Assembly: GCF_900101985.1 (NCBI RefSeq)
Contig: NZ_FNAR01000021.1
Span: 1-47,347, forward strand
Length of the DNA stretch: 47,347 bases
Direction: 5' to 3'
From: Bhargavaea beijingensis
GTDB lineage: Bacteria; Bacillota; Bacilli; Bacillales_A; Planococcaceae
Positions within the stretch are counted from its first letter, which is position 1. Each line of letters opens with the position of its first letter. The position numbers were made by a program, and so were the translations under genes. The notes beneath the pieces are model-generated. The model made no database searches, was not told the origin of the DNA, and saw only the letters and a list, made by a program, of their open reading frames with translations. This document shows, in pieces, positions 24,190-39,907 of this stretch.

Positions 24190-24251
24190 GCAGGCCGTCC
24201 GACGAACCATTCCGGAATGGCCGGCTCCGCCTGTCTTCCAATAAGATTTCT

Positions 24252-24285
24252 GAACCCCCGGCTTCTGCAAAGAGGCGGGGGGTTC
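24252..24285 (+). promoter_or_regulatory. Intercistronic hairpin between tctC and tctB
   Basis: GAACCCCC (24252-24259) and GGGGGTTC (24278-24285) make an 8-bp perfect stem with no T-run after it. Such hairpins usually protect the upstream binding-protein mRNA, giving more TctC than membrane subunits. Confidence 0.6.
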
Positions 24286-24345
24286 CCGCCATCTTGGGCG
24301 CGAAAAATGACGAACCATCAATACAGCAACACAGGAGATGTTCCC

Positions 24346-24804
24346 ATGCTTAAAACGTTGAATCAGAAAGTCAGCCTGATCCTTATCGCGATCGCTGCGC
24401 TGTATCTGTTCGGTGCGTTCCGCATCCCGAGCTATCCGTATGCCATCGTCGATGCCGACGTCCTGCCGAAAACGCTCGGCGTGCTGCTGATTGTCCTGTC
24501 CATTTTCCTGTTCTTCGCAAAAGATTCCGAAACGGAAGAACAGAAAAAGCGGCGCGACATCCCGAAAAGAGAAATCGGCATGCTCCTCGGCGTCGCCGGA
24601 TTGATCCTGGCATACATCCTGCTTCTTGAAGTGATCGGCTTTGTCCTTACGACAGCGCTGTTCATTTTCTTCTGTTCGTTTTTCCTCGGGTACCGGAACC
24701 ACGTCGCGAACGGCATCACGGCGGTCGTGTTCCCGCTCGTCCTTTACTTTATGTTCACGGAACTGCTAAGCATCACGCTGCCTAGCGGGATCCTGCCGTT
24801 CTGA
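24346..24804 (+). CDS. tctB: TctB-family small membrane subunit
   Basis: 152 residues from ATG 24346, preceded by AGGAG (24333-24337). A longer frame from 24217 runs through the hairpin and lacks a ribosome site, so it is not used. Four membrane helices (about 10-28, 42-58, 80-98 and 108-145), with the short DADVLPKTLGVLLIVLSIFL segment between the first two, as in the DUF1468/TctB family. It partners TctA. Confidence 0.88.
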   Translation: MLKTLNQKVSLILIAIAALYLFGAFRIPSYPYAIVDADVLPKTLGVLLIVLSIFLFFAKDSETEEQKKRRDIPKREIGMLLGVAGLILAYILLLEVIGFVLTTALFIFFCSFFLGYRNHVANGITAVVFPLVLYFMFTELLSITLPSGILPF

Positions 24805-24817
24805 TTAGGAGGTTACT

Positions 24818-26320
24818 ATGGGTTCTTTAGATGGAATCATCACAGGCTTTCAGACTGCGTTCAGTCTTGAAGCCATCCTGTTCGTGATCATCGGTGTCTT
24901 TGTAGGAACGATTATCGGGATGCTTCCGGGGCTTGGCCCGATCAGCGCCATCGCTGTCATGATCCCGATGACATTCGGAATGGATCCGGCGACGGCGCTC
25001 ATCATGATGGCGGGCGTTTACTATGGCGCCATCTTCGGAGGTTCCACCTCGTCGATTCTCCTGAATGCGCCGGGCGTTTCGGGTGCGGTTGCAACGTCAT
25101 TCGACGGCTATCCGATGGCCCAGCAAGGCAAGGCCGGGAAAGCGCTCGCCATCGCGGCGATTGCTTCATTCACCGGCGGTACGGTGTCGGTAGTCCTGCT
25201 GATGCTTCTGGCCCCGGCACTGTCGAGCGTGGCGGTCTCGTTCGGACCGGCCGCTTACTTTGCCCTGATGCTCCTCGGCCTTACCGCCATTGCCAGCCTG
25301 TCCGAAGGCTCGACGATCAAAGCGCTGATTTCGGCTGTTGCCGGCTTCATGGTTGTCACGATCGGCATCGATGCCCAGACAGGCACGCAACGTTTTACAT
25401 TCGGCAACATGAACCTGCTTGAGGGCCTCGACTTCCTCGTCATTGCGCTCGGTCTGTTTGCGATTGCGGAAGTGTGCTCGCTCGTTTTGAACCGGAAAGA
25501 CAAGTCGGTCAAGGACACGCACAACATCGGCAGCCTAAAGCTCGATAAACAGGATCTGAAAGATATGAGCGGACCGATGACGCGCCACTCGTTCCTCGGA
25601 TTTATCCTCGGGGTCCTTCCGGGAGCAGGGGCGACGATCGCATCGTTTATCTCGTACATCTTTGAAAAGCGGCTCTCGAAAAACCCGGATGAGTTCGGTA
25701 AAGGCTCCGTCAAGGGCTTGGCCGCTCCGGAAACGGCAAACAACGCCGCGACGAGCGGTGCCTTTGTCCCGCTCCTGAGCCTCGGGATCCCGGGTTCCGG
25801 AACGACCGCCGTCATGCTCGGCGCGTTCCTCGTCCTTGGCGTCCAGCCGGGCCCGATGCTCATGACCGACCGGCCGGAAATCTTCTGGGGCGTCATCGCA
25901 TCGATGTACATCGGGAACATCTTCCTATTGATCATCAACCTGCCGCTCATCCCGTACTTTGCGAAGATCCTCAAGATCCCGCGCCCGCTGCTGATTTCAC
26001 TTGTCATTGTCTTCAGTATGATCGGGGTGTATGCGATCAGCTTCAACACGTTCGACCTGTACATGCTGTTGCTGTTCGGGGTCATCGGGTTCCTGATGAG
26101 GCTCTTCTCGTTTCCGGCACCGCCGTTCATCCTGGCATTTATCCTCGGCGGCATGCTCGAGCAGTCGCTGCGCCAGGCGATGACCATCTCGAACGGCAGC
26201 CTGTCGATTTTCTTGGATGACAAGATCGCACTCGGCCTGCTGATCCTCGCTTTGCTGTCATTTGTCTTCCCGCTCCTCAAGCAGCTTCGCAAAAACAAAG
26301 AGAAAGCAGCGGAAGCGTGA
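24818..26320 (+). CDS. tctA: TctA-family large membrane subunit
   Basis: 500 residues, usual for TctA, with TAGGAGGTT before ATG 24818. Conserved stretches are GTIIGMLPGLGPISAIAVMI, GVYYGAIFGGSTSSILLNAP, the related second-half motif LGVLPGAGATIASFISY, GKGSVKGLAAPETANNAATS and LSLGIPGSGTTAVMLGAF. These duplicated PGLGP/PGAGA regions form the translocation core. With TctC and TctB it completes a cation-coupled carboxylate importer. Confidence 0.95.
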   Translation: MGSLDGIITGFQTAFSLEAILFVIIGVFVGTIIGMLPGLGPISAIAVMIPMTFGMDPATALIMMAGVYYGAIFGGSTSSILLNAPGVSGAVATSFDGYPMAQQGKAGKALAIAAIASFTGGTVSVVLLMLLAPALSSVAVSFGPAAYFALMLLGLTAIASLSEGSTIKALISAVAGFMVVTIGIDAQTGTQRFTFGNMNLLEGLDFLVIALGLFAIAEVCSLVLNRKDKSVKDTHNIGSLKLDKQDLKDMSGPMTRHSFLGFILGVLPGAGATIASFISYIFEKRLSKNPDEFGKGSVKGLAAPETANNAATSGAFVPLLSLGIPGSGTTAVMLGAFLVLGVQPGPMLMTDRPEIFWGVIASMYIGNIFLLIINLPLIPYFAKILKIPRPLLISLVIVFSMIGVYAISFNTFDLYMLLLFGVIGFLMRLFSFPAPPFILAFILGGMLEQSLRQAMTISNGSLSIFLDDKIALGLLILALLSFVFPLLKQLRKNKEKAAEA

Positions 26321-26404: not shown

Positions 26405-26845
26405 GTGCGGATTTGGCGGGGGACAGCAGATGACACCATGCTGACACTGATGTTTCTGTTTGGGCTGGCGGAAATCGTCGAGGAAGTCCTGGAGGTCAAT
26501 AGGTCATTACGGAAATCCTGATTAAACTGAGCAAAGGTGGACCGGCCGCGATCATCGCGGAACTCCCAGTTTGTTCATGATTGGCGTGCTCCATCAAAAT
26601 GCCACCATGTAATCACAAATTAAAGAAAAGGAGCTATCTGGCCACTTTTCTTTTATCTATGTATTATTTCACTTTGTCCTTATTAACTGCTGAAGGGAAA
26701 TAATCTTCGTAATCATTTGATTCCTTTTCTCGGGTAATCAAGAAAGGTACCAATGGTCGAAGACCGCCTAGAGAAGTAGACTCTTTAGGCGGTTTTTGTA
26801 TTTGAAGTATGGAGAGTTACCCCGGAAGGCGAATGGTTACCTGCA
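26405..26845. other. Gene-poor stretch with possible coding debris
   Basis: No intact gene. A short frame (MLTLMFLFGLAEIVEEVLEV) at 26438-26497, and a second frame beyond it (VITEILIKLSKGGPAAIIAE), look membrane-protein-like and may be the shattered remains of a transporter; I cannot name it. AAAGAAAAG (26622-26630) and CTTTTCTTT (26645-26653) form a weak hairpin, followed by the clear terminator at 26763. Confidence 0.35.
26763..26797 (+). terminator. Rho-independent terminator
   Basis: ACCGCCTA (26763-26770) and TAGGCGGT (26786-26793) pair perfectly and are followed by a T-run. No intact gene precedes it. Confidence 0.7.
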
Positions 26846-26916
26846 TTGATGATTACAGTATTTGGAAATGATATAGTTGAAGGAGTACTTCACACGTCTT
26901 CTCGGGAGGGAGCCGG

Positions 26917-27168
26917 ATGTGCAAAATTACCAACGGCACAGCAGTTAAATTCAATTCAACGACATTCTCTGATGTTGCTTGTAAAGAAAGTGATGTCGAA
27001 GAGTTGTTGCGCAAGAATATCTACATGATATGCGATGAAGAGGAGTCCATGCTGATTGTCGGCAAGCAAGTCCGGAACGCTCAGCGCGGCATCAGTGATC
27101 TCACGGCGAATTGCCTGTTTTTCGAATGGATGAAAATCTGTTCTTTTTCAATCAAATTCAAAAGTTAA
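26917..27168 (+). pseudogene. Fragment resembling the N-terminus of a DUF91/NucS-type nuclease-like protein
   Basis: 83 codons. The part NGTAVKFNSTTFSDVACKES, DVEELLRKN, then MICDEEESMLIVGKQVRNAQ and RGISDLTA resembles the start of conserved proteins of the endonuclease NucS/DUF91 kind, which continue with a D-E-N-G and an E-I-K catalytic segment. Here the match ends at SDLTA and an unrelated tail follows to the stop, so the catalytic core is missing. A gene of the full family has roughly 300 codons. I treat it as a truncated remnant; family recognition is from memory. Confidence 0.5.
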
Positions 27169-27280
27169 CGCAACAGAGAGCAAATCATTACACATTTGAC
27201 TACAGTGGATTAACTTTGGCAAGGGACGAATGAGTAAAAGCGTAAAGGGGCAAGCGTGATCAATACAACATACCAACGGA

Positions 27281-27463
27281 TTGATGATAAAACCAGGGAC
27301 CTATGTCGCCACCGCCGACGAGGGCGACGGATATGTTGCCATCATGTCCGGACCGGTTGGCAACAGTGATATTGTCGACAATGAAATCTTCTCCGGCCGG
27401 TTCCAGTTTACCGTCCAAGATGGCCAATACCTGAAACTATCGGATGCAACAATTGAACAATAG
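27281..27463 (+). pseudogene. Small beta-domain fragment of a secreted/lipoprotein-type family
   Basis: 60 codons from TTG 27281: IKPGTYVATADEGDGYVAIM, NSDIVDNEIFSGRF and QFTVQDGQYLKLSDATI. The pattern (G-x-Y then a repeated D-N-x-F-x-x-R-x-x-x-T-V-x-D-G-Q-Y-L-x-L) is that of a C-terminal repeat domain common in Bacillota surface proteins. No signal peptide or ribosome site precedes it, and an in-frame stop lies just upstream, so it is likely the tail of a lost gene. A clean terminator follows. Confidence 0.5.
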
Positions 27464-27480
27464 TAAAAGAATAAAAAGTG

Positions 27481-27516
27481 GATTCCAGCGTTTTCGACGC
27501 TGGAATCTGCTTTTTT
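27481..27516 (+). terminator. Rho-independent terminator
   Basis: GATTCCAGCG (27481-27490) and CGCTGGAATC (27498-27507) make a 10-bp stem, followed by TGC and six T. Confidence 0.85.
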
Positions 27517-27728
27517 ATATGCTCGGAAATATCATCAGTACTCCAAAAATGAGCAAATGATAACTTTTATTCAATAGTAATTATGAAGCAGCAGCAAACC
27601 ATTATTACTTCGCAAGACAGCAGATATTCCGTTATAAGACAGAATAACAAGAGTGAATCAATAAGAAATTACTCCGGCACGAAAAACTATATCAAAGTAA
27701 GTAACTAAAATATTAATAATATTCTGTA

Positions 27729-27757
27729 TTGCCATTCAACTTTCCCTCTGCAATAAT
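27729..27757 (+). promoter_or_regulatory. Predicted promoter of the acyl-CoA dehydrogenase operon
   Basis: TTGCCA (27729-27734), 17 bases, AATAAT (27752-27757), with TG at 27749-27750 making an extended -10. The rest of 27517-27728 is AT-rich and shows no gene. Confidence 0.55.
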
Positions 27758-27784
27758 CGCCTTAACTTATTAATCTAAGATAAC

Positions 27785-27799
27785 CGTTACCGTATAACG
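27785..27799. promoter_or_regulatory. Candidate operator CGTTA-N5-TAACG
   Basis: CGTTACCGTATAACG lies about 20 bases after the expected transcription start. It shares GTTACCGTA with the palindrome AGTTACCGTAACT at 35919-35931, just beyond the IclR gene that ends this operon. It may be that regulator's site. Confidence 0.35.
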
Positions 27800-27835
27800 A
27801 TAAATGGTCATGGTTATTCAAATGGAGGGGAAGGC

Positions 27836-28990
27836 ATGAAGGAACTACAGCTACCGCTGGTGCGGCTGACTCCTGAGCAAGAAGCGTTCCGGCATGAGGT
27901 CAGGAGTTTTCTGGACGAGGAGCGGAAGAAGGGGACGTTTGCGACGCATGCGGATTCATGGCTGAGCGGGTACAGCGCTGAATTTTCCAAAATGCTTGGG
28001 AAGCGCGGGTGGATCGGAATGACCTGGCCAAAAGAATATGGGGGCAGTGAGCGCTCGGCGATTGACCGGTATATCCTCACTGAAGAATTGCTTGCGGCTG
28101 GTGCACCTGTTGCGTCCCACTGGTTTGCAGACAGACAGTCAGGGCCACTACTTCTCAATCTTGGGACTGAGGAACAGAAGGATTTCTTCCTTCCGAAGAT
28201 CACCAAAGGAGAGTGCTTCTTCTCAATCGGTTTGTCTGAACCGAACTCTGGGTCTGACCTGGCTTCACTGAAAACTAGAGCCGAAAAGGTGGAGGGCGGA
28301 TGGGTCGTCAACGGGATGAAGACATGGACGTCCGGTGCGCACCATTCCCACTACATGATCACGCTCTGCAGGACTTCGCCGCAGGACGAGAAGCGCCGGC
28401 ATGACGGGATGAGTCAGCTGATTATCGACCTGTCCGCGGAAGGGGTCAGCATCCGTCCGATCCAGTTCCTTACAGGTGAGCATCACTTTAACGAAGTGTT
28501 TCTTGAAAACGTTTTCGTCCCGGATAACCGGGTCATCGGCGAGGTCGGTAATGGCTGGAAGCAGGGCATGCTGGAGCTTGCCTATGAGCGGAGCGGCCCG
28601 GAACGGATCCTCAGCACATTCCCGCTCCTGCAGGAGGCACAGCGCCTCCTGACCGAGCAACAAGATCAAAAGGGCCTGGCCGAAGTGGCCAAGCTAAATG
28701 CAAGACTCTGGTCGCTCCGGAACATGTCGATCGGGGTTGCCCAAATGCTGGAGGGAGGCAAGGACGTCGCACTGGCGGCTTCGCTTGTGAAGGACCTGGG
28801 CACCTTGTTCGAACAATCTGTTGCGGAAGCGGTTCGTCTGCTGTTGCCGATGCGGCCGTCCGTCACGGCGGAGCGTCTGCTTGACCGGCTGATGGCGGAA
28901 TCAGTCTTGCACGGACCGGGCTTCACCATCCGCGGAGGTACAACGGAGATTCTGAGGGGAATTGTTGCGAAGGGAGTGGCATCAGCATGA
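27836..28990 (+). CDS. Acyl-CoA dehydrogenase, catalytic-type subunit
   Basis: 384 residues, ATG 27836 with GGAGGGGAAGG upstream. Acyl-CoA dehydrogenase fold: helical N-domain (LTPEQEAFRHEVRSFLDEER, GWIGMTWPKEYGG), beta-domain with FSIGLSEPNSGSDLASLKTR and WVVNGMKTWTSGAHHSHYM, and a helical C-domain. Glu251 in LELAYERSGPER stands where isovaleryl-CoA-type enzymes keep the catalytic base. The C-terminal FAD-adenine motif GPGFTIRGGTTEILRGIVAK is present, but the usual R-x-Q-F-G motif is missing. That arginine motif appears in the next gene instead, which suggests a mixed complex of the two proteins, as described for steroid-side-chain dehydrogenases (ChsE4-ChsE5, IpdE1-IpdE2). Substrate not known. 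Confidence 0.9.
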   Translation: MKELQLPLVRLTPEQEAFRHEVRSFLDEERKKGTFATHADSWLSGYSAEFSKMLGKRGWIGMTWPKEYGGSERSAIDRYILTEELLAAGAPVASHWFADRQSGPLLLNLGTEEQKDFFLPKITKGECFFSIGLSEPNSGSDLASLKTRAEKVEGGWVVNGMKTWTSGAHHSHYMITLCRTSPQDEKRRHDGMSQLIIDLSAEGVSIRPIQFLTGEHHFNEVFLENVFVPDNRVIGEVGNGWKQGMLELAYERSGPERILSTFPLLQEAQRLLTEQQDQKGLAEVAKLNARLWSLRNMSIGVAQMLEGGKDVALAASLVKDLGTLFEQSVAEAVRLLLPMRPSVTAERLLDRLMAESVLHGPGFTIRGGTTEILRGIVAKGVASA

Positions 28991-30051
28991 GTGAAATGCT
29001 GGAATTCATTGCAGACTCGGCAAAAAAGATCTTTAGAGACCAGGTGACGAAAGAACTCAACGAGTCGGTGGAGTCCGGAGCGTTTCCGGAAGAACTATGG
29101 CAGGTGCTTGCAGAGTCCGGAATGCTATCAATCGGGGTACCGGAAGCACTGGGAGGCGTAGGTGGAGACGTGGAGGATGCGCTGGCTGTCCTTCATCTGG
29201 CAGGCAAGCATGCCGTGCCGGCTCCACTGCTTGAAACGTTAGGGGCTGTATGGACACTGGCAGAATTCGGGGAAGAGGCAGAACCTCTACCGATGTCCTT
29301 TGTAATCGGCGACTTCCTGATCGAAGAAGGGACTCCGCTTAAGCTTGAGCACGTGCCATGGGGAAGAGTGGCTTCCAAGGTGATCGTGGCTGGGACGATC
29401 AACGGGAAGCCAGGGATCGGACAATTCTCCACTGATGGAATACAAGTCGTGGAAAACCAAAACCTCGCGGGCGAGCCGCTCGATCAATTGGTGATTAATG
29501 ACCCGGATATCGAACTTCTCAGCGAGGGTGAACAGGCAAAGCAGGCGACGGCACGATTGCTTGAAATCGGGGCAGCCGGACGATCTGCCATGATGGCAGG
29601 GGCTATTGAACATGTTCTCAACCTTTGTGTCTTCTACGCAAAGGAACGGCAGCAATTTGGCAGGCCGCTTACACGGTTCCAGGCCATCCAGCATCATATC
29701 GCGGCAATTGCAGGCGAAGCAGCAGCTGTGCTCGGTGCACTTAGCGGCAGTAATGATGCTTTAAGCAGAGGTACCGGCAGCGATGAGATAGCAATGGCCA
29801 AGATCCGCATTTCTGAGGCTGCCGGCACGGTCTCCTCGAGGGCACACCAGCTGCATGCGGCAATCGGAATGACGTATGAACATGAACTTCACCTGTCCAC
29901 ACGCCGTCTCTGGACGTGGCGTGAAGAATACGGAAACGAGACTTACTGGGCCAACGTGCTGGCTGAACGTTACCTGACGAAGGAAGAGTCACTGTGGGAA
30001 TCCATTACTAAAACAAAGCGAGGGAATGTCCATGCCGGATCTGTTGTTTGA
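28987..30051 (+). CDS. Acyl-CoA dehydrogenase, partner subunit without catalytic base
   Basis: 354 residues overlapping the first dehydrogenase gene by four bases. It has the family's N-domain (LWQVLAESGMLSIGVPEALG), a shortened and divergent beta-domain, and a C-domain with YAKERQQFGRPLTRFQAIQH, the FAD-pyrophosphate arginine motif absent from its partner, and QLHAAIGMTYEHELHLSTRR. At the position of the partner's Glu251 it reads GAAGRSA, so no base is seen there. The C-terminal glycine motif (GGTxEI) is also lacking. The two halves complement each other, so an alpha2-beta2 enzyme is the best reading. Confidence 0.85.
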   Translation: MSEMLEFIADSAKKIFRDQVTKELNESVESGAFPEELWQVLAESGMLSIGVPEALGGVGGDVEDALAVLHLAGKHAVPAPLLETLGAVWTLAEFGEEAEPLPMSFVIGDFLIEEGTPLKLEHVPWGRVASKVIVAGTINGKPGIGQFSTDGIQVVENQNLAGEPLDQLVINDPDIELLSEGEQAKQATARLLEIGAAGRSAMMAGAIEHVLNLCVFYAKERQQFGRPLTRFQAIQHHIAAIAGEAAAVLGALSGSNDALSRGTGSDEIAMAKIRISEAAGTVSSRAHQLHAAIGMTYEHELHLSTRRLWTWREEYGNETYWANVLAERYLTKEESLWESITKTKRGNVHAGSVV

Positions 30052-30862
30052 CCACCAAAATGGAATTGCAAGCATCACACTTAACCGACCTAAGGCCCTG
30101 AACGCGTTCAGCGGAGAAATGCTCGACCTTTGGATCGAAGCACTGGAGGAAGTGAGGGACTCGGACGAAATCCGTGTTCTCATCGTCCAGGGTGCAGGCA
30201 AGGGGTTCTGTTCCGGGGGCGACATCAAGGAAATGATCGCCGGACAGGGATTCTACAAATCCGATAAAGATCAGATATCTTCCGGACTTAAGCGCAAGAA
30301 TTCCCTCTGGAAGAAAGTGCAGCGGATTCCGCTTCTGCTTGAAGAGATCGACAAACCGGTGATCGCCAAGATTCATGGCCCGGCTTTCGGCGCGGGTCTG
30401 GACATGGCGCTGATGTGTGATATCCGGATTGCGGGTGAGTCGGCGACACTTTCCGAGAGCTATGTGAAAGTGGGACTGGTTCCCGGCGACGGTGGAGCTT
30501 ATTTCCTTCCTAAACTGGCAGGACTGGACATGGCCCTTCATATGCTCTGGACGGGCGAGGCCATCACCGCACAGGAAGCAAAAGAGCGTGGAATTGTCTC
30601 CTTTGTTGTGAGTGACGAAGAACTGAACAGCTACACCCAAGCCTATGCCGAGCGCCTGGCAGCAGGACCACAGCAGGCCATCCAGCTAATCAAGCGTGCC
30701 GTCTATGCAAATCGTGATATGTCGCTCCGTTCGTCCCTTGATTTCATCTCCTCGAAGATGGGGCTGATCATGGAAGAGGCCGATTTCAAGGAAGGTGTAC
30801 AGGCAGTAATTGAAAAGCGGAAACCAGTATTCAATGCGAAAGACGAGGAGGTCAGAGCATGA
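30032..30862 (+). CDS. Enoyl-CoA hydratase/isomerase (crotonase family)
   Basis: 276 residues from ATG 30032, for which GAGGG at 30020-30024 is well spaced; ATG 30026 is too close. It overlaps the dehydrogenase gene by 20 bases. Crotonase motifs: ITLNRPKALNAFSGEM, the oxyanion loop GKGFCSGGDIKEMIAG, and IHGPAFGAGLDMALMCDIRI. At the second catalytic site the family's P-G-A/E-G-G is PGDGG, so the usual second glutamate is an aspartate; the sequence SESYVKVGLVPGDGGAYFLP is seen. It would hydrate or isomerise the unsaturated CoA ester made by the two dehydrogenase subunits. Confidence 0.9.
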   Translation: MPDLLFDHQNGIASITLNRPKALNAFSGEMLDLWIEALEEVRDSDEIRVLIVQGAGKGFCSGGDIKEMIAGQGFYKSDKDQISSGLKRKNSLWKKVQRIPLLLEEIDKPVIAKIHGPAFGAGLDMALMCDIRIAGESATLSESYVKVGLVPGDGGAYFLPKLAGLDMALHMLWTGEAITAQEAKERGIVSFVVSDEELNSYTQAYAERLAAGPQQAIQLIKRAVYANRDMSLRSSLDFISSKMGLIMEEADFKEGVQAVIEKRKPVFNAKDEEVRA

Positions 30863-31839
30863 AGATGAGAAAGTGGTTGGGGCTGGTTATTGCCGCCTGC
30901 CTGATCTTATTTGTAAGCGCTTGCAATTCATTTGGTGCTGAAGGAGAAAGCAGTTCATCAAAAGTGACGTTCACAACTGGCACCACGACCGGCGTCTATT
31001 ATCCGCTGGGCGCTCTGCTGGCGACGCATTGGACAAATGATGCAGAGATTCAGGTCACTTCCCAAGGTTCCAATGGATCCGTGGAAAACCTCAAGCTGAT
31101 GCAAAAGGATCAGGCGGACATGGCGTTTTCGACAGTGAACATTATCTGGGAGGCATATAACGGTAAAAACAGCTTTGAAGGAGATGCCTACGACGATATC
31201 CGGATTATGGCGAACCTCTATCCGAACGTGAGCCATATTATCGCCCTTGATGATTCAGGAATCGAATCCGTCGAGGACATCTCTGGCAAATCTTTTGTGT
31301 TGGGAGCGGCAGGATCCGCCACTGAACTGGAGTCCAAGCTGATTCTTGAATCCCACGGTGTAGATATCGGAAAGGTCAATGAGAACTACGTCGGGTTCAC
31401 CGAAGCCGTAGACCTAATGCGCAACAAGCAGGCGCAGGCCGTAAATATCTATACGGGCGTTCCGGCCTCCGCTGCGACCGAACTGATTTCTACCGTCGAT
31501 TCGAAAGTACTGAATATGACGGATGAGGGCATTGCCAATATGACTTCCGATGACTATCCGTGGAACTTCGAGTATGTGATCGAGAAAGGAACCTACGATG
31601 GGCAGGAAGATGAGATCCGGACGGTTGGACAGTTCAGTTCCATCGCCGTAGATGCCAACCTCGATGAAGAAACTGTGTACGAAATGACGAAATCCCTTTG
31701 GGAGAACCTCGACAAGCTCGCTGAAGGTCACTCGGTCGTGAAACAGTTCAAGCCGGAAGATGCCGTACAAGGAACAGCTGATGTACCGCTCCATCCAGGT
31801 GCTGAACGGTACTACAAAGAAATTGGAGTCCTTAAATAG
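30859..31839 (+). CDS. TAXI-family TRAP transporter binding lipoprotein
   Basis: 326 residues, start ATG 30859 overlapping the hydratase stop. A lipoprotein signal ends in LILFVSAC with Cys22. The mature protein has the TAXI pattern: FTTGTTTGVYYPLGALLA, VTSQGSNGSVENLKLMQKDQ and ADMAFSTVNIIWEAYNGK, then KSFVLGAAGSATELESKLIL. It binds an organic acid or amino acid outside the membrane for the fused permease encoded next. The window gives no direct clue to its ligand beyond the CoA-dependent enzymes around it. Confidence 0.92.
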   Translation: MKMRKWLGLVIAACLILFVSACNSFGAEGESSSSKVTFTTGTTTGVYYPLGALLATHWTNDAEIQVTSQGSNGSVENLKLMQKDQADMAFSTVNIIWEAYNGKNSFEGDAYDDIRIMANLYPNVSHIIALDDSGIESVEDISGKSFVLGAAGSATELESKLILESHGVDIGKVNENYVGFTEAVDLMRNKQAQAVNIYTGVPASAATELISTVDSKVLNMTDEGIANMTSDDYPWNFEYVIEKGTYDGQEDEIRTVGQFSSIAVDANLDEETVYEMTKSLWENLDKLAEGHSVVKQFKPEDAVQGTADVPLHPGAERYYKEIGVLK

Positions 31840-31853
31840 GAGAGGTGACATCC

Positions 31854-33800
31854 ATGAACAATGAGCAAACTGCAGTCGTCGATCTGGAGGATGGCGGAGG
31901 ACAGAGAAACTTCCTGGGGATGTGGGCAAAGGTCTTACTGGTTCTTGCGGTCATCTGGACATTCTTCCAATTGTACATGAGCAGTTATGGTGTCATGGAT
32001 GCCATCAAGTTCAGGGCTTGGCATCTGCTGTTCCTGCTCCTGTTCAGTTTCCTTCTCTATCCGGCGAGAAAAGGCATGAAAAGAAAAAAGCCTGCTGTTA
32101 CGGACCTGGTGCTGATTGGGCTTGCCATTTCAGTATTTGCTTATTTCCTTATTACTTATGACACTTTCATCCGTGACCGTTTCGGAGTAAACACAACGCT
32201 GGATTATGTCGCTGGAGGCATCGCGATGCTGCTTCTATTTGAGGCAGCCAGAAGAGTGGTGGGCAATGGGCTGACAATCATTGCAGGGATTTTCCTGTTG
32301 TATAACTTCTTCGGCGGTTTTATTCCGGGTATATTCGGACACACCGGATTTACAGTCGAACGGGTGATCAACGTGATGTTCTGGGGCGGCCAGGGCATCT
32401 TCGGAACTGCACTCGGTGTCTCGGCCACTTACATCTTCGTCTTTGTCATGTTCGGGGCTTTCCTGAAAAACAGCGGATTCTCCGACTTCATCAATGATTT
32501 AGCCTTAACCATTGCGGGACGGTCCTCGGGTGGACCGGCAAAGGTTGCAGTTTTTGCAAGCGGACTGATGGGAATGATGAGCGGCTCTGCGGTCGGTAAC
32601 GTGGTGACTACCGGTACCGTCACGATTCCGCTCATGAAAAAGACCGGCTACTCAAAGAGCTTTGCCGGAGCAGTTGAGGCGGTCGCCTCTACCGGCGGCC
32701 TTCTGGCTCCGCCAATCATGGGAGCTGCGGGCTTCATCATGGCTGAATTCCTCGGCGTTCCGTATACGACCGTCATGCTGGCTGCCATCATCCCGGCAAT
32801 ATTGTATTACGCGTTTCTGTTCATGTCTGTCCACTTCGAAGCTAAAAGGCTTGGCCTGTCTGGGATTGCAAAAGAGAATATCCCAAATGCGGTGAAAGTG
32901 TTGAAGGAAGGCGGACACCTGCTGATTCCGCTGGTTGTGTTGCTGGCGACTCTCATGACTGGAGTTACCCCTTTGTTCGCTGCCATATGGGCACTTGTTT
33001 CCACTGTGCTGGCAAGCTGGCTCAGAAAATCTACCCGGATGAATCTCAGGCTCATCCTCCAGTCGATCGAAGAAGGGGCCAGAGGGGCGGTGAATGTCGG
33101 GATTGCCTGTGCGATTGTAGGGATTGTCATTGGTACCATTACACTGACGAGTGTCGGACTGACACTAGGCAATAACGTGATTGCGATTGCAGGAGGGAGC
33201 GTCTTGTTCGCTGCCCTTCTGACGATGGTCATCAGCGTGTTCCTCGGCATGGGGGTACCAGCCACTGCGGCTTATATTATCGTCGCAATGATTTCTGTGC
33301 CAATTCTGGTCAATATGGGGGTGCCCGCTCTGGCTGCCCACATGTTCGCTTTTTACTATGCGGCTCTTTCTGGAATCACTCCGCCTGTTGCGCTGGCCTC
33401 TTATGCGGCTGCCGGGATTGCGGGGGAAGATCCAACCAAAGTATCTGTGGCATCGCTTCGCTTGGCTGCGGTAGCGTTTATCTTGCCGTTTTTCTTCCTA
33501 TTCAATCCGGTGCTGTTGTTTGATGGACATTCCTACGGGGCTTCCATGATGGCTGGTGCCATGGCATTAATCGGCGGAATCGCTTTGGCATCAGCCGTTT
33601 CCGGCCGGGTCGTTGCAAAGATGGGATGGTTTTCAAGGGTGCTTGTGGGAGCTGGCGGCCTGATGATGATCGATGCGGGAACATTAACAGACCTGATCGG
33701 CATCGCTTTGATCACTGTAGGTATGTTCGGTCAGCTGAAAGTGCTTAAAGAACAAAAAGTCATAAGTCCGATCAAAGTCAACAATGGGGAGGGTGTATGA
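31854..33800 (+). CDS. TRAP transporter permease, fused 4TM/12TM (TAXI type)
   Basis: 648 residues from ATG 31854; AGGAGAGG (31838-31845) is eight bases before, which rules out GTG 31845. The N-terminal part (about 1-190) is the DctQ-like small subunit plus linker, the rest the DctM-like large subunit with FGAFLKNSGFSDFINDLALT, AGRSSGGPAKVAVFASGLMG, SGSAVGNVVTTGTVTIPLMK and AVEAVASTGGLLAPPIMGAA. A second repeat shows FLGMGVPATAAYIIVAMISV and ALSGITPPVALASYAAAGIA. Na+-driven uptake with the TAXI lipoprotein. Confidence 0.94.
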   Translation: MNNEQTAVVDLEDGGGQRNFLGMWAKVLLVLAVIWTFFQLYMSSYGVMDAIKFRAWHLLFLLLFSFLLYPARKGMKRKKPAVTDLVLIGLAISVFAYFLITYDTFIRDRFGVNTTLDYVAGGIAMLLLFEAARRVVGNGLTIIAGIFLLYNFFGGFIPGIFGHTGFTVERVINVMFWGGQGIFGTALGVSATYIFVFVMFGAFLKNSGFSDFINDLALTIAGRSSGGPAKVAVFASGLMGMMSGSAVGNVVTTGTVTIPLMKKTGYSKSFAGAVEAVASTGGLLAPPIMGAAGFIMAEFLGVPYTTVMLAAIIPAILYYAFLFMSVHFEAKRLGLSGIAKENIPNAVKVLKEGGHLLIPLVVLLATLMTGVTPLFAAIWALVSTVLASWLRKSTRMNLRLILQSIEEGARGAVNVGIACAIVGIVIGTITLTSVGLTLGNNVIAIAGGSVLFAALLTMVISVFLGMGVPATAAYIIVAMISVPILVNMGVPALAAHMFAFYYAALSGITPPVALASYAAAGIAGEDPTKVSVASLRLAAVAFILPFFFLFNPVLLFDGHSYGASMMAGAMALIGGIALASAVSGRVVAKMGWFSRVLVGAGGLMMIDAGTLTDLIGIALITVGMFGQLKVLKEQKVISPIKVNNGEGV

Positions 33801-34981
33801 TGCAACCGTTGGATGATATACGAGTATTGGATGTATCCCGTGTGTATGCGGCTCCGGCAGGTGCGATGACTCTTGGAGACCTGGGAGCGGATGTGATTCG
33901 CGTTGAACCGCCGGGCGGATCAGACAGCATGAGAGACTGGGGGCCTTTCGTCGAAGGGGAAAGCACCTATTATATGAGTGCAAACCGCAACAAGCGGTCT
34001 GTGACGATTAATCTGAAAGACCCCGAGGGGAAAAGGCTGTTTCTGGACTTGGTGAAGACAGCAGACGTGGTGATCGAGAACTTCAAAACCGGAACGATGG
34101 AAAATCTTGGAGTCGGTTATGAGACGCTGAAAGAGGAAAATCCGGGAATTATCCTTTGCTCGGTGACCGGCTTTGGCCATACCGGACCTCTCAGCCGGAA
34201 TCCGGGATTTGACCCGGTTATCCAGGCGATGAGCGGTCTGATTGATGTAACCGGTCACCCGGACAAGGAAGGAACGAAAGTTGGGATTCCGATTGCAGAT
34301 ATCATCACCTCTTCCTATGTGGTGATCGGGGTGCTTGCAGCGCTCCGGCAGCGTGAGCGGACCGGCGAAGGCCAGGCCATCGACCTATCGCTTTTGGATG
34401 TCCAAATGGCCAGCATGGCGAACGTCGGCAGTGCCTATCTGAACACCGGGATGGTATCAAAGCGGCTCGGTAACCAGCACAATAACGTGACGCCTTATCA
34501 GGTGTTCCAGACCGCAGACGATCCAATCATGATCTGTGCGGGAAATGACGGGCTGTTTGCAAAACTGGCCGATCTTCTTGGCCATCCGGAATGGGCGACT
34601 GATCCACAATACCGGACGAATGCGGATCGGAAAAAGAACGAAAAAGAAATTGTGAGTAACATACAGGAGCTGTTGTACGGGAAGAAATCAGATGAATGGC
34701 TGACCCTCCTGCAAAAAGCAGGTGTGCCTGCCGGAAGGGTGAACACCATTTCCCAGGCGCTGGAGCAGGAGCAGGTGGTGGCGCGTGGCGGGGTAGAGTC
34801 CGTAAAACATCCAAAAGCAGGAGAAATCAAGCTCTTGGCAAGCCCCCTAAGATTCAGTAATCTGGGGATAGAAACCCGGCTGCCGCCGCCTGGGCTCGGA
34901 GAGCATAACGAGGAAGTGTTCGGCGAATTGTACCAATGCGCGACAGATGAGTACAAGGCGGTGGGACAGGGGAAAGGGTAA
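33797..34981 (+). CDS. CaiB/BaiF family III CoA-transferase
   Basis: 394 residues, ATG 33797 overlapping the permease stop (ATG 33800 possible). Family III traits: IRVLDVSRVYAAPAGAMTLG, DLGADVIRVEPPGGSD, NRNKRSVTINLKDPEGKRLF and VIENFKTGTMENLGVGYETL. The catalytic aspartate is Asp139 in NPGFDPVIQAMSGL. These enzymes move CoA from one acyl-CoA to a carboxylate without ATP. It would activate the imported acid for the dehydrogenase pair; no separate CoA ligase is in the operon. Confidence 0.92.
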   Translation: MMQPLDDIRVLDVSRVYAAPAGAMTLGDLGADVIRVEPPGGSDSMRDWGPFVEGESTYYMSANRNKRSVTINLKDPEGKRLFLDLVKTADVVIENFKTGTMENLGVGYETLKEENPGIILCSVTGFGHTGPLSRNPGFDPVIQAMSGLIDVTGHPDKEGTKVGIPIADIITSSYVVIGVLAALRQRERTGEGQAIDLSLLDVQMASMANVGSAYLNTGMVSKRLGNQHNNVTPYQVFQTADDPIMICAGNDGLFAKLADLLGHPEWATDPQYRTNADRKKNEKEIVSNIQELLYGKKSDEWLTLLQKAGVPAGRVNTISQALEQEQVVARGGVESVKHPKAGEIKLLASPLRFSNLGIETRLPPPGLGEHNEEVFGELYQCATDEYKAVGQGKG

Positions 34982-35011
34982 GAAAAGCAGGTTGATTGGA
35001 GAGCGTGCAAT

Positions 35012-35797
35012 ATGGAAAATTTAAAAGATCAAGAGAAAATGAATGCCCATTATTCGATGTCTTCCGTACATCGGGTTATCCAGGTATTGCGTGCTTTTAA
35101 AGGTGGTGATAAGCAACTGTCACTGACCGATATCCATAAACGGACAGGGATCGGCATTTCCAGCTTGCAGCGGATGCTTTGGACGCTTGTGTATGAAGGT
35201 TTCCTAGTGAAAGAAGAAGATACCAAGATGTATTCGTTGGGGCTGGAACTCTTCTTCCTCGGCCGGCTTGTCGAGCAGAGCGATGCGTTCCTATCCATAG
35301 CAATCCCCATAATGGAAAGGCTAAATGAAGAGACGAGTGAAAATGTATCGATCAGTATCATTGAAAATGGTGAGCGAAAGTGTCTTCATAATCTGCCAAG
35401 CCGTCACGAACTTTCGGCTCTTACGTTCATCGGACACACCTCTCCACTCTACGCAGGGGCTTCTGCAAAAGCCCTGCTCGCTTTTCAGAGTGATGATTAC
35501 GTCAGGGACTACCTGGATAGAATCCAGTTTGTCCCCATCACGGACATCACGGTGAATTCCAAGGAACAGCTTCAACAAGATCTCACCCAGATACGGAAGA
35601 AAGGATATGCCATCACCTACGGGGAACGGGTGAAGGGCGCCATGTCCATCTGCGCTCCCATCATGATGGATGACGTCGCCTTCGCTGTTTTTACACTCAC
35701 AATTCCCCGGGCACGTGAAGAAGATTACGATATTGATGAGCTAATAAAGAAAGTTATCGGCGCCGCAAGGGAAATTGAGGCACGTATGAAGAAATAA
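35012..35797 (+). CDS. IclR-family regulator of the dehydrogenase-TRAP operon
   Basis: 261 residues, ATG 35012 with TTGGAGAGCG upstream, 30 bases after the CoA-transferase gene and in the same direction. The winged-helix domain (about 15-80) has SSVHRVIQVLRAFKGGDKQL, DIHKRTGIGISSLQRMLWTL. The C-terminal effector domain (about 95-260) has SENVSISIIENGERKCLHNL and PLYAGASAKALLAF, with the conserved GYAITYGERVKGAMSICAPI. Probably controls its own operon; the effector may be the substrate of the pathway. Confidence 0.9.
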   Translation: MENLKDQEKMNAHYSMSSVHRVIQVLRAFKGGDKQLSLTDIHKRTGIGISSLQRMLWTLVYEGFLVKEEDTKMYSLGLELFFLGRLVEQSDAFLSIAIPIMERLNEETSENVSISIIENGERKCLHNLPSRHELSALTFIGHTSPLYAGASAKALLAFQSDDYVRDYLDRIQFVPITDITVNSKEQLQQDLTQIRKKGYAITYGERVKGAMSICAPIMMDDVAFAVFTLTIPRAREEDYDIDELIKKVIGAAREIEARMKK

Positions 35798-35833: not shown

Positions 35834-36143
35834 TGAATCCTTATTAACATTAATGGTTGTGATAGGCAATTATCAGATTTGTCCAGAAGGGGTGCTGGAT
35901 ATGATATCGCAACAGATCAGTTACCGTAACTCGACTGTTTCGCACTCTACTACGGTGCGTTTTTTGTTTGCTCTCTACATATTTAATAGGGTTTCAAAAA
36001 TGATTAAAAAGAAATAGTGCAATCGCCCCGATTTCAGGAAAGCGCTTTCCGATTCAAGTACTTCTGTATGATAGGCATGTTTTGGCATCTCCGATAAACT
36101 TGTTAGAAAGTACTGATAATTTAACGGGAGAGAAGGGGAGAGC
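35834..36143. promoter_or_regulatory. 310-base intergenic control region
   Basis: It holds no gene. Visible: a 6-base-arm palindrome AGTTACCGTAACT (35919-35931); a terminator-like hairpin CGCAC (35941-35945)/GTGCG (35955-35959) with six T, which closes no visible gene; and a 14-base perfect palindrome GGAAAGCGCTTTCC (36037-36050) that fits the CcpA consensus at 12 of 14 positions, just before the muropeptide operon. No strong -35/-10 pair was found by eye. Confidence 0.5.
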
Positions 36144-37787
36144 ATGCTGAAAGTAACGAAGAAAGCCGGGGTGGCGGCAGTGCTGGCGGGAACGATGGCT
36201 CTCGGTACCGTCTTTGCAGTGCCAGTCGAGGCAGGCGGGGGAGCGGAGAACAAGCAGTGGGACCGGCCGGGGCCGATGTCGCCTGTTTTGCATCCGGGTT
36301 CCGTGAAGGGGGCCGGTATGGTACAGGCTCCGCTGGATTCGATTGATGGGGCAATCGAGAAGAGCATCGCGGACCGGACTTTCCCGGGAGCCGTAGTTTT
36401 GGTGGCGAGGAACGGCCATGTCGTGAAGCATGAGGCTTATGGGCATTCGGCGCTTTACACGGATGACCGGTTCACGGAGATGGACGAGCCTGTCGCGATG
36501 ACGGAGGAGACGATTTTCGACCTGGCCTCCATCAGCAAGATCTTCACGACGACCGCTGCAATGAAGCTGTATGAGCAGGGTCTTTTCTCGCTGGATGATC
36601 CGGTTGCCGATTACATCCCGGAGTTTGCCGACAACGGTAAGGAGGATGTGACGATCCGCCAGTTGATGACGCATACGTCCGGATTCACGGCTTGGGTGCC
36701 TCTGTATAGCCAAGGCAAAAGCCGGGAGGACCGCCTGGATATCGCACACCGTTATCCGCTCGCCAATCCTCCTGGGACCAAGTACACGTACAGCGACCTG
36801 AACATGATCACGCTCGGTTCCCTGGTGGAGCGGCTCTACGGAAAGCGCCTGGACACGTTTATCAAGGATGAGATCACCGGGCCGCTCGGCATGAAGGATA
36901 CGATGTACAATCCGCCGGCTTCCCTTAAGAACCGGATTGCCGCTACCGAATACCAGCCGGCGCTCGGCCGAGGCATCGTGTGGGGCAGTGTCCATGATGA
37001 AAATGCCTGGTCGCTGGACGGTGTGGCGGGGCATGCGGGCGTGTTCTCGACGGCGCCAGATCTCGCCAAGTTCGCGCATATGTTCCTGAACGATGGCCGG
37101 TACGGCGGCAAGCGGATCCTGAAGCCGGAAACGGTCCGCCTGCTTGAGGAAAACCAGATTCCGGGGTTCCCGGGCAATGACCACGGGCTCGGATGGGAGC
37201 TGAACCAAGGCTGGTACATGGACGCACTGGCTGATTCGGGGACTGCAGGACATACCGGCTACACCGGTACGAGCATCGCCGTCAGCAAGAAAAACCAGAC
37301 GATCGCCATCCTGCTGACGAACCGGGTCCATCCTTCCAGGAACACGATTTCCCTGAACACAATCCGGCGGACAGTCGCTCGCCATGTGGCGGATGCTATT
37401 CCGGCGCCGCTTCCGAAGCATGATGAAATGTGGTTTTCCGGCTACGGGGACCAGTTGGAGCGGACGCTGGAATTCAAACTGAGTGGTGATGCCTCCGAGC
37501 TTTCATTTGATTCCTGGCACCGCCTGGAGGACGGATCGGACTTTGGCCGTGTGGAAGTCTCCGCCGACGGGGAGAGATGGACGGAACTTGCGGCACTGAC
37601 CGGCAACGGAGGGGATCTGGAGCGGGTGACGGCCGAACTGCCTGAAGGCACCGGGTTTGTCCGCTTCCGCTATGACACCGACGCGTCCGTGAACGGCCGG
37701 GGCTGGTATGTCGGCAACGTGGAGGCAGACGGGGAAATTGTAGAGCCTGTCGGTGCTTCCGCCGGCTGGGCACTGAGGGATTATTAA
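36144..37787 (+). CDS. amiE: AmiE-like exported serine hydrolase (beta-lactamase fold) with extra C-terminal domain
   Basis: 547 residues, ATG 36144 after AGAAGGGGAGAG. Signal peptide MLKVTKKAGVAAVLAGTMAL followed by GTVFAVPVEA. The penicillin-binding/beta-lactamase fold has Ser129 and Lys132 in FDLASISKIFTTTAAMKL, YTYSDLNMITLG and GHTGYTGTSIAVSKKNQTIA. B. subtilis AmiE (YbbE), an N-acetylmuramyl-L-alanine amidase, has about 440 residues. Here about 105 more follow (from 430), beta-rich with FGRVEVSADGERWTELAAL and FVRFRYDTDASVNGRGWYVG, like the sandwich domain of immune-inhibitor A-type proteins. The next genes are nagZ and namZ homologues, as in B. subtilis ybbEDC. Role: remove peptides from muropeptides. 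Confidence 0.85.
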   Translation: MLKVTKKAGVAAVLAGTMALGTVFAVPVEAGGGAENKQWDRPGPMSPVLHPGSVKGAGMVQAPLDSIDGAIEKSIADRTFPGAVVLVARNGHVVKHEAYGHSALYTDDRFTEMDEPVAMTEETIFDLASISKIFTTTAAMKLYEQGLFSLDDPVADYIPEFADNGKEDVTIRQLMTHTSGFTAWVPLYSQGKSREDRLDIAHRYPLANPPGTKYTYSDLNMITLGSLVERLYGKRLDTFIKDEITGPLGMKDTMYNPPASLKNRIAATEYQPALGRGIVWGSVHDENAWSLDGVAGHAGVFSTAPDLAKFAHMFLNDGRYGGKRILKPETVRLLEENQIPGFPGNDHGLGWELNQGWYMDALADSGTAGHTGYTGTSIAVSKKNQTIAILLTNRVHPSRNTISLNTIRRTVARHVADAIPAPLPKHDEMWFSGYGDQLERTLEFKLSGDASELSFDSWHRLEDGSDFGRVEVSADGERWTELAALTGNGGDLERVTAELPEGTGFVRFRYDTDASVNGRGWYVGNVEADGEIVEPVGASAGWALRDY

Positions 37788-37801
37788 AGGGGGAATGAAG
37801 A

Positions 37802-39907
37802 ATGCCGAGTTTACGGAAAGCGCTGCTGCCGTTTTTGATCGCGGTGCTGATTGCGACGCCCGTTATGACGGGCATGGGCACTGTGAGTGCCGCGGAAGCA
37901 TCGGACATCAACGATCTGGTGATTCTCCAGAACGTGCCGGAGATCGACCATGAAGCTGAAAATGGGGAGCTGCAATTGGATGCACTCCATGTATATCAGG
38001 ACGGACATTTCAAGAAGTCGGGCGAACAGTCTTGGAGCTCTTCCAATCAGAATGTCGCAACAGTGGATGCGGCAGGGAAGGTGACGGCCACCGGTAAACC
38101 CGGAAAAGCGTTTATCCAAGTAACCGACGGAAAGTCTTCCGACCGGATCGCCATCCAGGCGAAGCCGGACCCGGAAGCAAAAGAAGGCAAGGGGAAACCG
38201 CCTGTAAAAATCTCGGTCGTGAAGGAAACGGGTGAGCGGTACAACCTCGTGGACAACGCCATCCGCCAGATGACGATGGAGGAAAAGGTCGGGCAGATGC
38301 TCATGCCGGACTTCCGCAACTGGAATGGGAAAAACGTGACCGAAATGCTTCCGGAAATCGATCGTCTCGTAAAAGACTACCACCTCGGCGGCGTGATTTT
38401 ATTCCGTGAAAACGTCGTGACAACCGAACAGACGACCCGTCTTGCCGACGCCTACCAGGCGGCCTCCGAAAAGTACGGGATGTTCCTGACGATTGACCAG
38501 GAAGGCGGCATCGTGACACGTCTCCAATCGGGAACCGACATGCCGGGCAATATGGCGCTCGGGGCGACCCGTTCAAAGGAACTGGCCTATGACGCCGGAC
38601 GGGTGATCGGCGAAGAGTTGGCGTCTCTCGGCATCAACTTCAACCTGGCGCCGGCGCTCGACGTCAACAATAACCCGGACAACCCGGTGATCGGCGTCCG
38701 TTCCTTTGGCGAGGACCCCAAACTTGTCGCGAATCTCGGCACCTCATATATACAGGGCCTCCAGGATACGGGAACCGCCGCGACGGCGAAGCATTTCCCG
38801 GGCCACGGAGACACGGCAGTTGATTCCCACCTCGGCCTGCCGGAAGTGCCTTATGACAAGGAGCGCTTGATGGAAGTCGAGCTTTATCCCTTCCAGCAGG
38901 CGATGGATCACGGGATCGATGCCATCCTGACGGCGCACGTCACTTTCCCGAAGATTGATGATACCACCGTCATTTCCAAAAAAGACGGCACGGAAATCCA
39001 TCTTCCGGCTACGCTTTCCCACAAAGTGCTGACGGGGCTCATGAGAGAAGAAATGGGTTATGATGGCCTGATCTTCACGGATGCCCTAAACATGAAGGCG
39101 ATCGCCGACCACTTCGGCCCGGTCGACACGGTCATCAAGGCGATTCAGGCAGGCACAGATATCGTGCTGATGCCGGTCGGGCTGGAGCCTGTCGCGGAAG
39201 GTGTTTATGATGCGGTCCGCTCCGGCGAAATCTCCGAAGAGCGCATCGAAGCATCCGTCCGCCGGATCCTGACACTTAAGCTGGAGCGCGGCATCCTCAA
39301 AGAAGAAAATCCGCGGCCGGTGGAAGAAAAGATCGCCAACGCCCTGAAAGTGGTCGGATCGGATGAGCACAAAGCCGTGGAACGCGCGGCGGCCGAACAA
39401 TCCGTGACGCTCTTGAAAAACGAAGAGGTCCTTCCACTTGTACCAAATGCGGATGACCGGATCATCGTCGTCGGCAACACGTATATCGAAGACCTGTACA
39501 ATGCGGTAAAAGAAAAGCATGCCAATACAGTGCTGATCAAAGCAAGCGCGCCGTTGACTGAAGAGCAGCTGGCCCAAGTGGGGGAGGCAAAGGCGGTCAT
39601 CGCGGGCACCGTCACATCCACCGTCGCCCAGCGCTCCGTGACCAGCCCGCAGATGCGGTTGGTCAACCAGCTGATCACGGAAACCGAAACACCGGTGATC
39701 GGTGTCGGCATCCGAAATCCGTATGACATCATGGCGTATCCGGATGCGGATGCCTATCTTGCACAGTACAGCTTCCGGACTGCGAGCTTCAAAGCGACCG
39801 CATCGATCCTTTTCGGCGAAGTCGCGCCGGCCGGAACGCTGCCGGTTACGATCCCGGGTGCTGATGGCAGTGTCCTCTACGGATACGGCCACGGACTGAC
39901 ATACTGA
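37802..39907 (+). CDS. nagZ: NagZ-like exported beta-N-acetylglucosaminidase (GH3) with Ig-like N-terminal domain
   Basis: 701 residues, ATG 37802, ribosome site AAAGGGGGAATG. Signal peptide up to VSAAEA (about residue 33). Residues about 50-120 resemble a bacterial Ig-like (BIG2) domain: GEQSWSSSNQNVATVDAAGK and VTATGKPGKAFIQVTDGKSS. The GH3 domain then shows MEEKVGQMLMPDFRNWNG, LTIDQEGGIVTRLQSGTDMP, GHGDTAVDSHLGLPEVPYD with the acid/base D-S-H at 341-343, and the nucleophile Asp427 in LIFTDALNMKAIADHFG. A second C-terminal domain is present. It trims GlcNAc from MurNAc-containing fragments. B. subtilis NagZ has about 640 residues; the Ig-like part explains the extra length. Confidence 0.9.
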   Translation: MPSLRKALLPFLIAVLIATPVMTGMGTVSAAEASDINDLVILQNVPEIDHEAENGELQLDALHVYQDGHFKKSGEQSWSSSNQNVATVDAAGKVTATGKPGKAFIQVTDGKSSDRIAIQAKPDPEAKEGKGKPPVKISVVKETGERYNLVDNAIRQMTMEEKVGQMLMPDFRNWNGKNVTEMLPEIDRLVKDYHLGGVILFRENVVTTEQTTRLADAYQAASEKYGMFLTIDQEGGIVTRLQSGTDMPGNMALGATRSKELAYDAGRVIGEELASLGINFNLAPALDVNNNPDNPVIGVRSFGEDPKLVANLGTSYIQGLQDTGTAATAKHFPGHGDTAVDSHLGLPEVPYDKERLMEVELYPFQQAMDHGIDAILTAHVTFPKIDDTTVISKKDGTEIHLPATLSHKVLTGLMREEMGYDGLIFTDALNMKAIADHFGPVDTVIKAIQAGTDIVLMPVGLEPVAEGVYDAVRSGEISEERIEASVRRILTLKLERGILKEENPRPVEEKIANALKVVGSDEHKAVERAAAEQSVTLLKNEEVLPLVPNADDRIIVVGNTYIEDLYNAVKEKHANTVLIKASAPLTEEQLAQVGEAKAVIAGTVTSTVAQRSVTSPQMRLVNQLITETETPVIGVGIRNPYDIMAYPDADAYLAQYSFRTASFKATASILFGEVAPAGTLPVTIPGADGSVLYGYGHGLTY

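Follow-up and report, generated by a model that had tools for sequence, protein, structure and literature searches.

Gene Content and Layout

The window analysed here, the whole 47,347-nucleotide stretch of contig NZ_FNAR01000021.1 from Bhargavaea beijingensis (Planococcaceae), carries on its plus strand, at 27836-35797, a seven-gene operon that includes a split acyl-coenzyme A (CoA) dehydrogenase. Open reading frame (ORF) predictions and domain and model searches agree with the genes and domains given in an earlier note on this DNA. We conclude that the operon is a conserved catabolic unit whose split acyl-CoA dehydrogenase (subunits alpha and beta below) is of an uncharacterised type, and that it is probably mobile. 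The seven genes are:

27836..28990, + strand: acyl-CoA dehydrogenase alpha subunit, 384 amino acids (aa), with the glutamate E251 (domain and model searches, alignment, Foldseek)
28987..30051, + strand: acyl-CoA dehydrogenase beta subunit, 354 aa, with the flavin adenine dinucleotide (FAD) motif R221-Q223-F224-G225 (domain and model searches, alignment, Foldseek)
30026..30862, + strand: crotonase-type enoyl-CoA hydratase, 278 aa (Pfam ECH_1, 204.3 bits)
30859..31839, + strand: TAXI-type solute-binding protein, 326 aa, with a lipoprotein-like N-terminus (TIGR02122, 282.2 bits, cut-off 84.35; lipobox by eye)
31845..33800, + strand: fused permease of the tripartite ATP-independent periplasmic (TRAP) type, 651 aa, GTG start (TIGR02123, 668 bits, cut-off 320.65)
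33797..34981, + strand: family III CoA-transferase, 394 aa (CoA_transf_3, 435.2 bits; SUGCT the nearest solved relative)
35012..35797, + strand: IclR-family regulator, 261 aa (HTH_IclR and IclR_C domains both present)

Four of the six junctions within the operon overlap: alpha/beta, hydratase/TAXI and permease/CoA-transferase by 4 bases each, and beta/hydratase by 26 bases, which shrinks to 20 should translation of the hydratase begin at the third codon. The TAXI and permease genes lie 5 bases apart, and the CoA-transferase and IclR genes 30 bases apart. The TAXI solute-binding protein adjoins the fused permease and both exceed their NCBIfam cut-offs, so that the two constitute a TAXI-TRAP importer. 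The best NCBIfam model for the hydratase, PRK09245, gives 243.5 bits, under its cut-off of 354. The CoA-transferase is assigned to family III by its CoA_transf_3 domain and by an aspartate, presumably catalytic, that is conserved in all 17 aligned sequences. The proposal that one unit joins uptake to CoA activation without ATP, to desaturation by the split enzyme and to hydration is supported. To call the route from import to beta-oxidation complete, as the earlier note did, is too strong, because neither a 3-hydroxyacyl-CoA dehydrogenase nor a thiolase is found among the seven genes. Elsewhere in the host genome there are five thiolase matches above the cut-off, four of them full length, and 3-hydroxyacyl-CoA dehydrogenase matches at C15 and C11.

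Two Dehydrogenase Subunits with Complementary Residues

The two dehydrogenase genes are adjacent paralogues, and a beta gene is found near alpha in all of the 37 Bacillota loci compared. Pfam detects the N-terminal and middle domains in alpha together with a weak C-terminal domain (21.9 bits, cut-off 22.4), and the N- and C-terminal domains in beta with no match to the middle domain. Residue E251 of alpha, which we take to be the catalytic base, is invariant in 20 of 20 aligned alphas, is followed by R252, lies 10 residues past an invariant tryptophan and aligns with a glutamate in 4x28_A; the usual C-terminal glutamate site reads RGG in all 20 sequences. Conversely, R221, Q223, F224 and G225 of the RxQFG FAD motif are invariant in 20 of 20 aligned betas, and the beta column answering the alpha glutamate, placed via an alignment with 6fah_C, holds a glycine in the window and is not conserved. 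A conserved catalytic glutamate is thus found on one subunit only, and in the heteromeric steroid acyl-CoA dehydrogenases, as described in PMC8399759, the catalytic glutamate is likewise on one subunit only and FAD binds at the dimer interface.

Predicted single-chain models (mean predicted local distance difference test scores of 81.8 for alpha and 90.0 for beta) were compared with the PDB by Foldseek. The six best matches of alpha are 8hk0_A/B (Fic32-33), 6wy8_B, 6wy9_A and 4x28_A/B, and the four best matches of beta are 6wy8_C/A, 6wy9_B and 4x28_C, which are the other kind of chain in the complexes matched by alpha. The residue patterns and the models support the view that alpha and beta complement each other as parts of a single heteromeric enzyme, putatively an alpha2beta2 assembly with FAD at the interface.

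A Separate Clade of Split Dehydrogenases

The best NCBIfam model for alpha is pimC_large (TIGR03204), at 189.7 bits against a cut-off of 623.85; beta reaches 62.5 bits on the PimD model TIGR03203 (cut-off 652.7) and 94 bits on the IpdE2 model (cut-off 450). In a first tree of 55 hand-picked alphas, the window alpha falls inside a clade of 34 rows (support 100/100) from Bacillota, Actinomycetota, Pseudomonadota and Chloroflexota, with the PimC proteins that score above cut-off and other dehydrogenases of the host genome outside it. A second tree of 63 rows, to which paralogues of Mycobacterium sp. shizuoka-1 including its ipd locus were added, keeps the clade (27 rows, 100/99) and leaves the ipd-locus rows outside, the ipd label resting only on an IpdE2 model match and adjacency. 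Besides its ipd-locus proteins, this Mycobacterium also has one member of the clade. The nearest outside rows in the second tree are from Mycobacterium: first a protein of locus L176, followed by long ORFs (about 700 aa) that give both alpha-like and beta-like scores. PimC lies at a greater distance from the clade than do the ipd-side proteins of Mycobacterium.

Profile scores also separate the clade: 102 clade alphas score at least 465 bits and 68 other alphas at most 226 bits, repeats being included in both sets. The motif HW.[AG]DRQ is present in 96 of the 102 clade alphas and in none of the 68 other alpha-type sequences. The loci were chosen by IGLSEPNSG or ELA[FY]ERSGP, by which the 102/102 count for those motifs is partly by construction; HW.[AG]DRQ was not among the selection patterns. 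Orthology with PimCD is rejected by the TIGR03204 and TIGR03203 cut-offs and by both trees, and orthology with the steroid ipd enzymes by the IpdE2 cut-off, by sequence identity and by the place of alpha outside the ipd-locus rows. The host genome has a second adjacent acyl-CoA dehydrogenase pair outside the clade (G000 C38:91680-93255; L008 and L058).

The steroid heteromeric acyl-CoA dehydrogenases ChsE4-ChsE5 and Tcur3481-Tcur3483 are likewise encoded by two adjacent genes and match alpha and beta chain by chain in fold, but they share only 30-31% identity with alpha and 18-24% with beta and have other operon partners, and the Mycobacterium ipd-locus relatives lie outside the alpha clade. 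PimCD also has adjacent genes for a large and a small subunit and supplies the best NCBIfam model for alpha, but alpha stays far under that cut-off and outside the PimC part of the trees. The best Foldseek match of alpha, the Fic32-33 complex of Streptomyces ficellus (8hk0), which functions in antibiotic formation, is only 28% identical. Fic32-33 and the PimCD-like pairs with fitness effects on dicarboxylates (PMC12543098) also make the earlier placing of split dehydrogenases among steroid and bile-acid degraders too narrow.

Distribution and Gene Neighbourhoods

Relatives of alpha (E <= 1e-60) are found in 57 of the 261 genomes of the host's family, the host included, and in 14 of its 19 genera. 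A scan of named genomes, in which at least 595 places were found and 80 were kept, detected them in at least three other phyla. The enzyme is therefore not special to this Bacillales genome, in contrast to the reading in the earlier note. Within the host's own genus, none of the seven other genomes has an alpha relative at the same threshold.

The 37 Bacillota loci, which include two repeats (L063 of L048 and L096 of L057), contain near alpha a beta gene in 37, a hydratase gene in 35, a CoA-transferase gene in 24, an IclR gene in 19 and TAXI-TRAP genes in 3. The order alpha-beta-hydratase is found in all 30 of the loci L009-L038 (L009 is the window itself; the hydratase is truncated by the locus end), and is thus not due to chance. 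Other importers take the place of TAXI-TRAP: a DctP-type TRAP system together with an ATP-grasp ligase in L041, DctP in L057 and branched-chain-type ABC genes in L068. These counts and substitutes indicate a constant core with exchangeable importers. The core consists of alpha, beta and the hydratase; a CoA-transferase usually accompanies it, an IclR gene does so in about half of the loci, and TAXI-TRAP is one importer among several. In 35 Bacillota loci (L063 and L096 included) that extend 5 kb or more to both sides, a thiolase gene is near the core in one and a 3-hydroxyacyl-CoA dehydrogenase gene in none, in searches with one to three query proteins per family, by which genes may have been missed.

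Neighbouring genes were also considered as a guide to the substrate and rejected as too mixed, for they include a sigma-54 factor, GlcD/GlcF, HpaB, ligases, ABC genes and DctP; the region from C. metallidurans has no annotation. The sigma-54 factor gene adjoins the core in L048, L050 and L052, from three genomes of the family. At 7104-20331 of L061 (Oceanobacillus senegalensis) the alpha and beta genes are present in three copies that are 99.9-100% identical, the first and second of which are separated by a transposase-like ORF (rve, Mu-transpos_C_2); this triplication is either a recent amplification or an assembly artefact.

Candidate Regulatory Sites

Three candidate sites flank the operon:

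27729..27757, + strand: sigma-70-like promoter, TTGCCA-17-AATAAT, with TG before the -10 element (10 of 12 matches)
27787..27803, + strand: operator candidate TTACCGTATAACGATAA (TTAYCG-N5-CGRTAA), 33-49 bases before the alpha start
35941..35959, + strand: terminator-like hairpin followed by a T run

Promoter-like sites number 7 in the region against 8.7 in shuffled sequences, and terminator-like sites 7 against 8.9, so that only their position favours the promoter and terminator. The operator pattern was built from palindromes of L039, L040, L046 and L051 and the window sequence. Its only exact site in the 2,988,557-base host genome is that at 27787-27803, which indicates specificity rather than significance, since we estimate that chance alone would give about 0.7 exact sites in 3 Mb. 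The window alone is not beyond chance either (a match with at most one mismatch in 19 of 100 shuffles). The relatives carry more weight: among 29 distinct upstream regions independent of the pattern, 8 carry a site with no more than one mismatch, in every case no farther than 60 bases from the alpha start, whereas 0.29% of mononucleotide-shuffled 300-base regions do so. The 29 regions exclude L045, L059 and L067, the palindromes of which stood in the same output; with them, the count is 9 of 32. Judging from the sequences, IclR probably acts at TTACCGTATAACGATAA just before alpha.

Upstream of the operon, 26500-27813 of the window has no ORF of at least 90 aa, a G+C content of 0.43-0.48 around it and apparent scraps of coding sequence.

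Genomic Location

The stretches compared from six of the sibling genomes match the window only rightwards of 35,995-36,060, just past the terminator-like hairpin; one of them, L203, ends at a contig end. On the left side, the match of sibling G005 ends at 26,434, past the TctA gene; in the other five of these siblings TctA is represented only by relatives that share at most about 50% identity with it. In the seventh, G003, neither flanking gene was found at the threshold. The operon thus lies in a variable segment, which has probably been gained or lost as a unit. A plasmid origin was considered and dropped: there was no near match, and the 38 records returned by the beta protein search are all less than 60% identical.

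Other genes of the window lie on both sides of this segment. To the right, at 36144-41181, genes for a Beta-lactamase-family hydrolase, a GH3 glycosidase and a NamZ exo-muramidase follow in series and resemble a cell-wall recycling cluster. To the left, at 20720-26320, lie genes for a sensor kinase with an sCache domain and for a regulator that contains a DpiA-like domain; the three genes that follow, read from their translations as TctC-TctB-TctA, may form a unit for tricarboxylate uptake, and only one sibling has a TctA that is 97% identical. Further organic-acid genes, for a major facilitator superfamily transporter, an AMP-dependent ligase and a DcuC-type carrier, lie on the minus strand at 13335-18539.

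Proposed Pathway and Substrate

We consider it likely that this IclR-linked operon serves for the uptake of an organic acid, its activation by CoA transfer and the first two steps of its oxidation. In the proposed pathway, the TAXI lipoprotein and the fused TRAP permease would import the acid anion, and the family III transferase would supply it with CoA taken from succinyl-CoA, for example, or from the pathway's own product. The alpha-beta dehydrogenase, with its glutamate on alpha and its FAD motif on beta, would then introduce a 2,3 double bond, presumably as a heterotetramer that passes electrons to the electron-transferring flavoprotein, and the crotonase would hydrate that bond. Later steps would fall to enzymes encoded outside the operon, and IclR may control the whole by binding at TTACCGTATAACGATAA, with either sign. 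A comparable arrangement occurs in the anaerobic o-phthalate clusters, where, according to PMC13040137, TAXI-TRAP genes lie close to the catabolic genes and a succinyl-CoA-dependent phthalate CoA-transferase carries out the activation, but a decarboxylase acts next there and the dehydrogenase pair and hydratase here.

The substrate is at best guessed, and our weak and somewhat doubtful choice would be a polar or dicarboxylic acid of small to medium size. Human SUGCT is the nearest to the transferase among solved structures, and the transferase reaches 364.1 of the 750 bits required by the SUGCT model NF052585. In the glutamate-type TAXI proteins, the ligand residues are Y45 and Q93 in VcGluP and Y219 and Q263 in BP0403, according to PMC12344293. 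These positions were placed by their 48-residue spacing in an alignment with 9ibo; among the TAXI proteins aligned, the tyrosine is kept in three of four sequences and the glutamine is a threonine in all four, by which a glutamate importer is disfavoured. No positive evidence was found for the ring or branched chain that the earlier note had proposed for the acid.

Several observations weigh against the proposed pathway. No transferase gene is nearby in 13 of the 37 Bacillota loci, AMP- or ATP-grasp ligases occur in the loci of some relatives, and the guess at the substrate draws on family resemblance. In 6 of 20 betas the column answering the alpha glutamate holds a glutamate too, and beta is less conserved than alpha (27-51% versus 52-79% identity to the window proteins). 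A joint alignment of alpha and beta set ERSGP of alpha against ERQQFG of beta, misplacing the catalytic segment, and was discarded; the residue argument therefore rests on separate alignments. Upstream, 16 of the 32 distinct regions outside the five pattern sources match best at 3-4 mismatches, as shuffled sequences mostly do, and L041, L042, L044 and L072 have an IclR gene and only such sites. Finally, the open-licence literature searched yields no experiment on, or description of, the operon or the clade.

Alternative Explanations

The absence of a thiolase agrees with housekeeping beta-oxidation as well as with recycling of CoA by the transferase. In the latter case the operon would be a beta-hydroxylation cassette, in which the transferase moves CoA from the 3-hydroxyacyl-CoA to the incoming acid and releases a free beta-hydroxy acid, with no ATP spent and no thiolase needed. 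The operon's enzymes are just those that such a cassette would need (transferase, dehydrogenase and hydratase), and the scarcity of thiolase (1/35) and 3-hydroxyacyl-CoA dehydrogenase (0/35) near the core agrees with it, if misses from one to three queries per family are few. An aldehyde dehydrogenase gene is near the core in 4 of the 35 Bacillota loci, two of which, from Peribacillus (L071 and L196), have one that exceeds the GucD cut-off, and a 3-hydroxyacid-dehydrogenase-like gene occurs in L200 and L126, both outside Bacillota. Aldehyde dehydrogenase is, however, only slightly commoner with a transferase (4/27) than without one (3/56), and the host has housekeeping 3-hydroxyacyl-CoA dehydrogenase and thiolase. 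The carnitine cai operon is a precedent for such a gene set, having a CoA-transferase, an acyl-CoA dehydrogenase and a crotonase, but the window transferase gives 125.3 of 413 bits on the carnitine CoA-transferase model and alpha 72.9 of 540 bits on its carnitine model, by which a carnitine operon is rejected. On the whole we regard a CoA-recycling cassette as unlikely. Beta-oxidation of dicarboxylates of the PimCD type seems to us rather less likely still. Its attractions are that pimC_large is the best model for alpha at 189.7 bits, that the transferase is nearest to SUGCT and that, in beta-proteobacteria, fitness effects on C8-C12 dicarboxylates are described for PimCD-like pairs, the heteromer being only suggested there too (PMC12543098); set against these, the score of alpha is far below 623.85, and neither tree places the true PimC proteins within the clade. 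Our estimate was lowered because, in the 63-row tree, the Mycobacterium ipd-side proteins are closer to the clade than PimC.

That same position of the Mycobacterium proteins, nearest outside the clade, is a point for degradation of steroid, bile-acid or similar ring side chains, the idea of the earlier note. The steroid enzymes are also the closest solved structures after Fic32-33, a thiolase and an OB_ChsH2_C protein are encoded upstream in L040, and the long Mycobacterium ORFs resemble the fused bile-acid enzyme CasC as portrayed in PMC8399759. Alpha nevertheless lies apart from the ipd-locus proteins of a Mycobacterium whose genome also encodes a clade member, and a SUGCT-like transferase and a TRAP importer appear ill-suited to a large hydrophobic acid. 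We raised our estimate for this route slightly but still hold it improbable. Equally improbable, in our judgement, is ordinary degradation of short branched-chain acyl-CoAs with an unusual subunit layout. Branched-chain-type ABC genes lie near the core in L068, L113 and L200, but importers of this type also carry aromatic and other organic acids, and HW.[AG]DRQ, absent from 68 other alpha-type sequences, suggests a polar element.

Implications

In the open-licence literature found, split acyl-CoA dehydrogenases are discussed for steroids and, as a suggestion, for dicarboxylates, and no characterised close homologue of known substrate was found there. As a speculative extension that we doubt will hold in every part, the clade may be an uncharacterised heteromeric family of at least four phyla, marked by HW.[AG]DRQ and acting on small polar or dicarboxylic acyl-CoAs, which in Bacillota would form a portable, single-operator cassette for acid beta-hydroxylation, with a CoA-recycling transferase, a hydratase and interchangeable importers. 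Given a common and separate clade that has a diagnostic motif, a gene core that is conserved and an operator candidate, the regulator, the operator, the binding protein and the enzyme pair can each be assayed for the substrate. The operon family would also explain a catabolic trait that is scattered among many bacteria.

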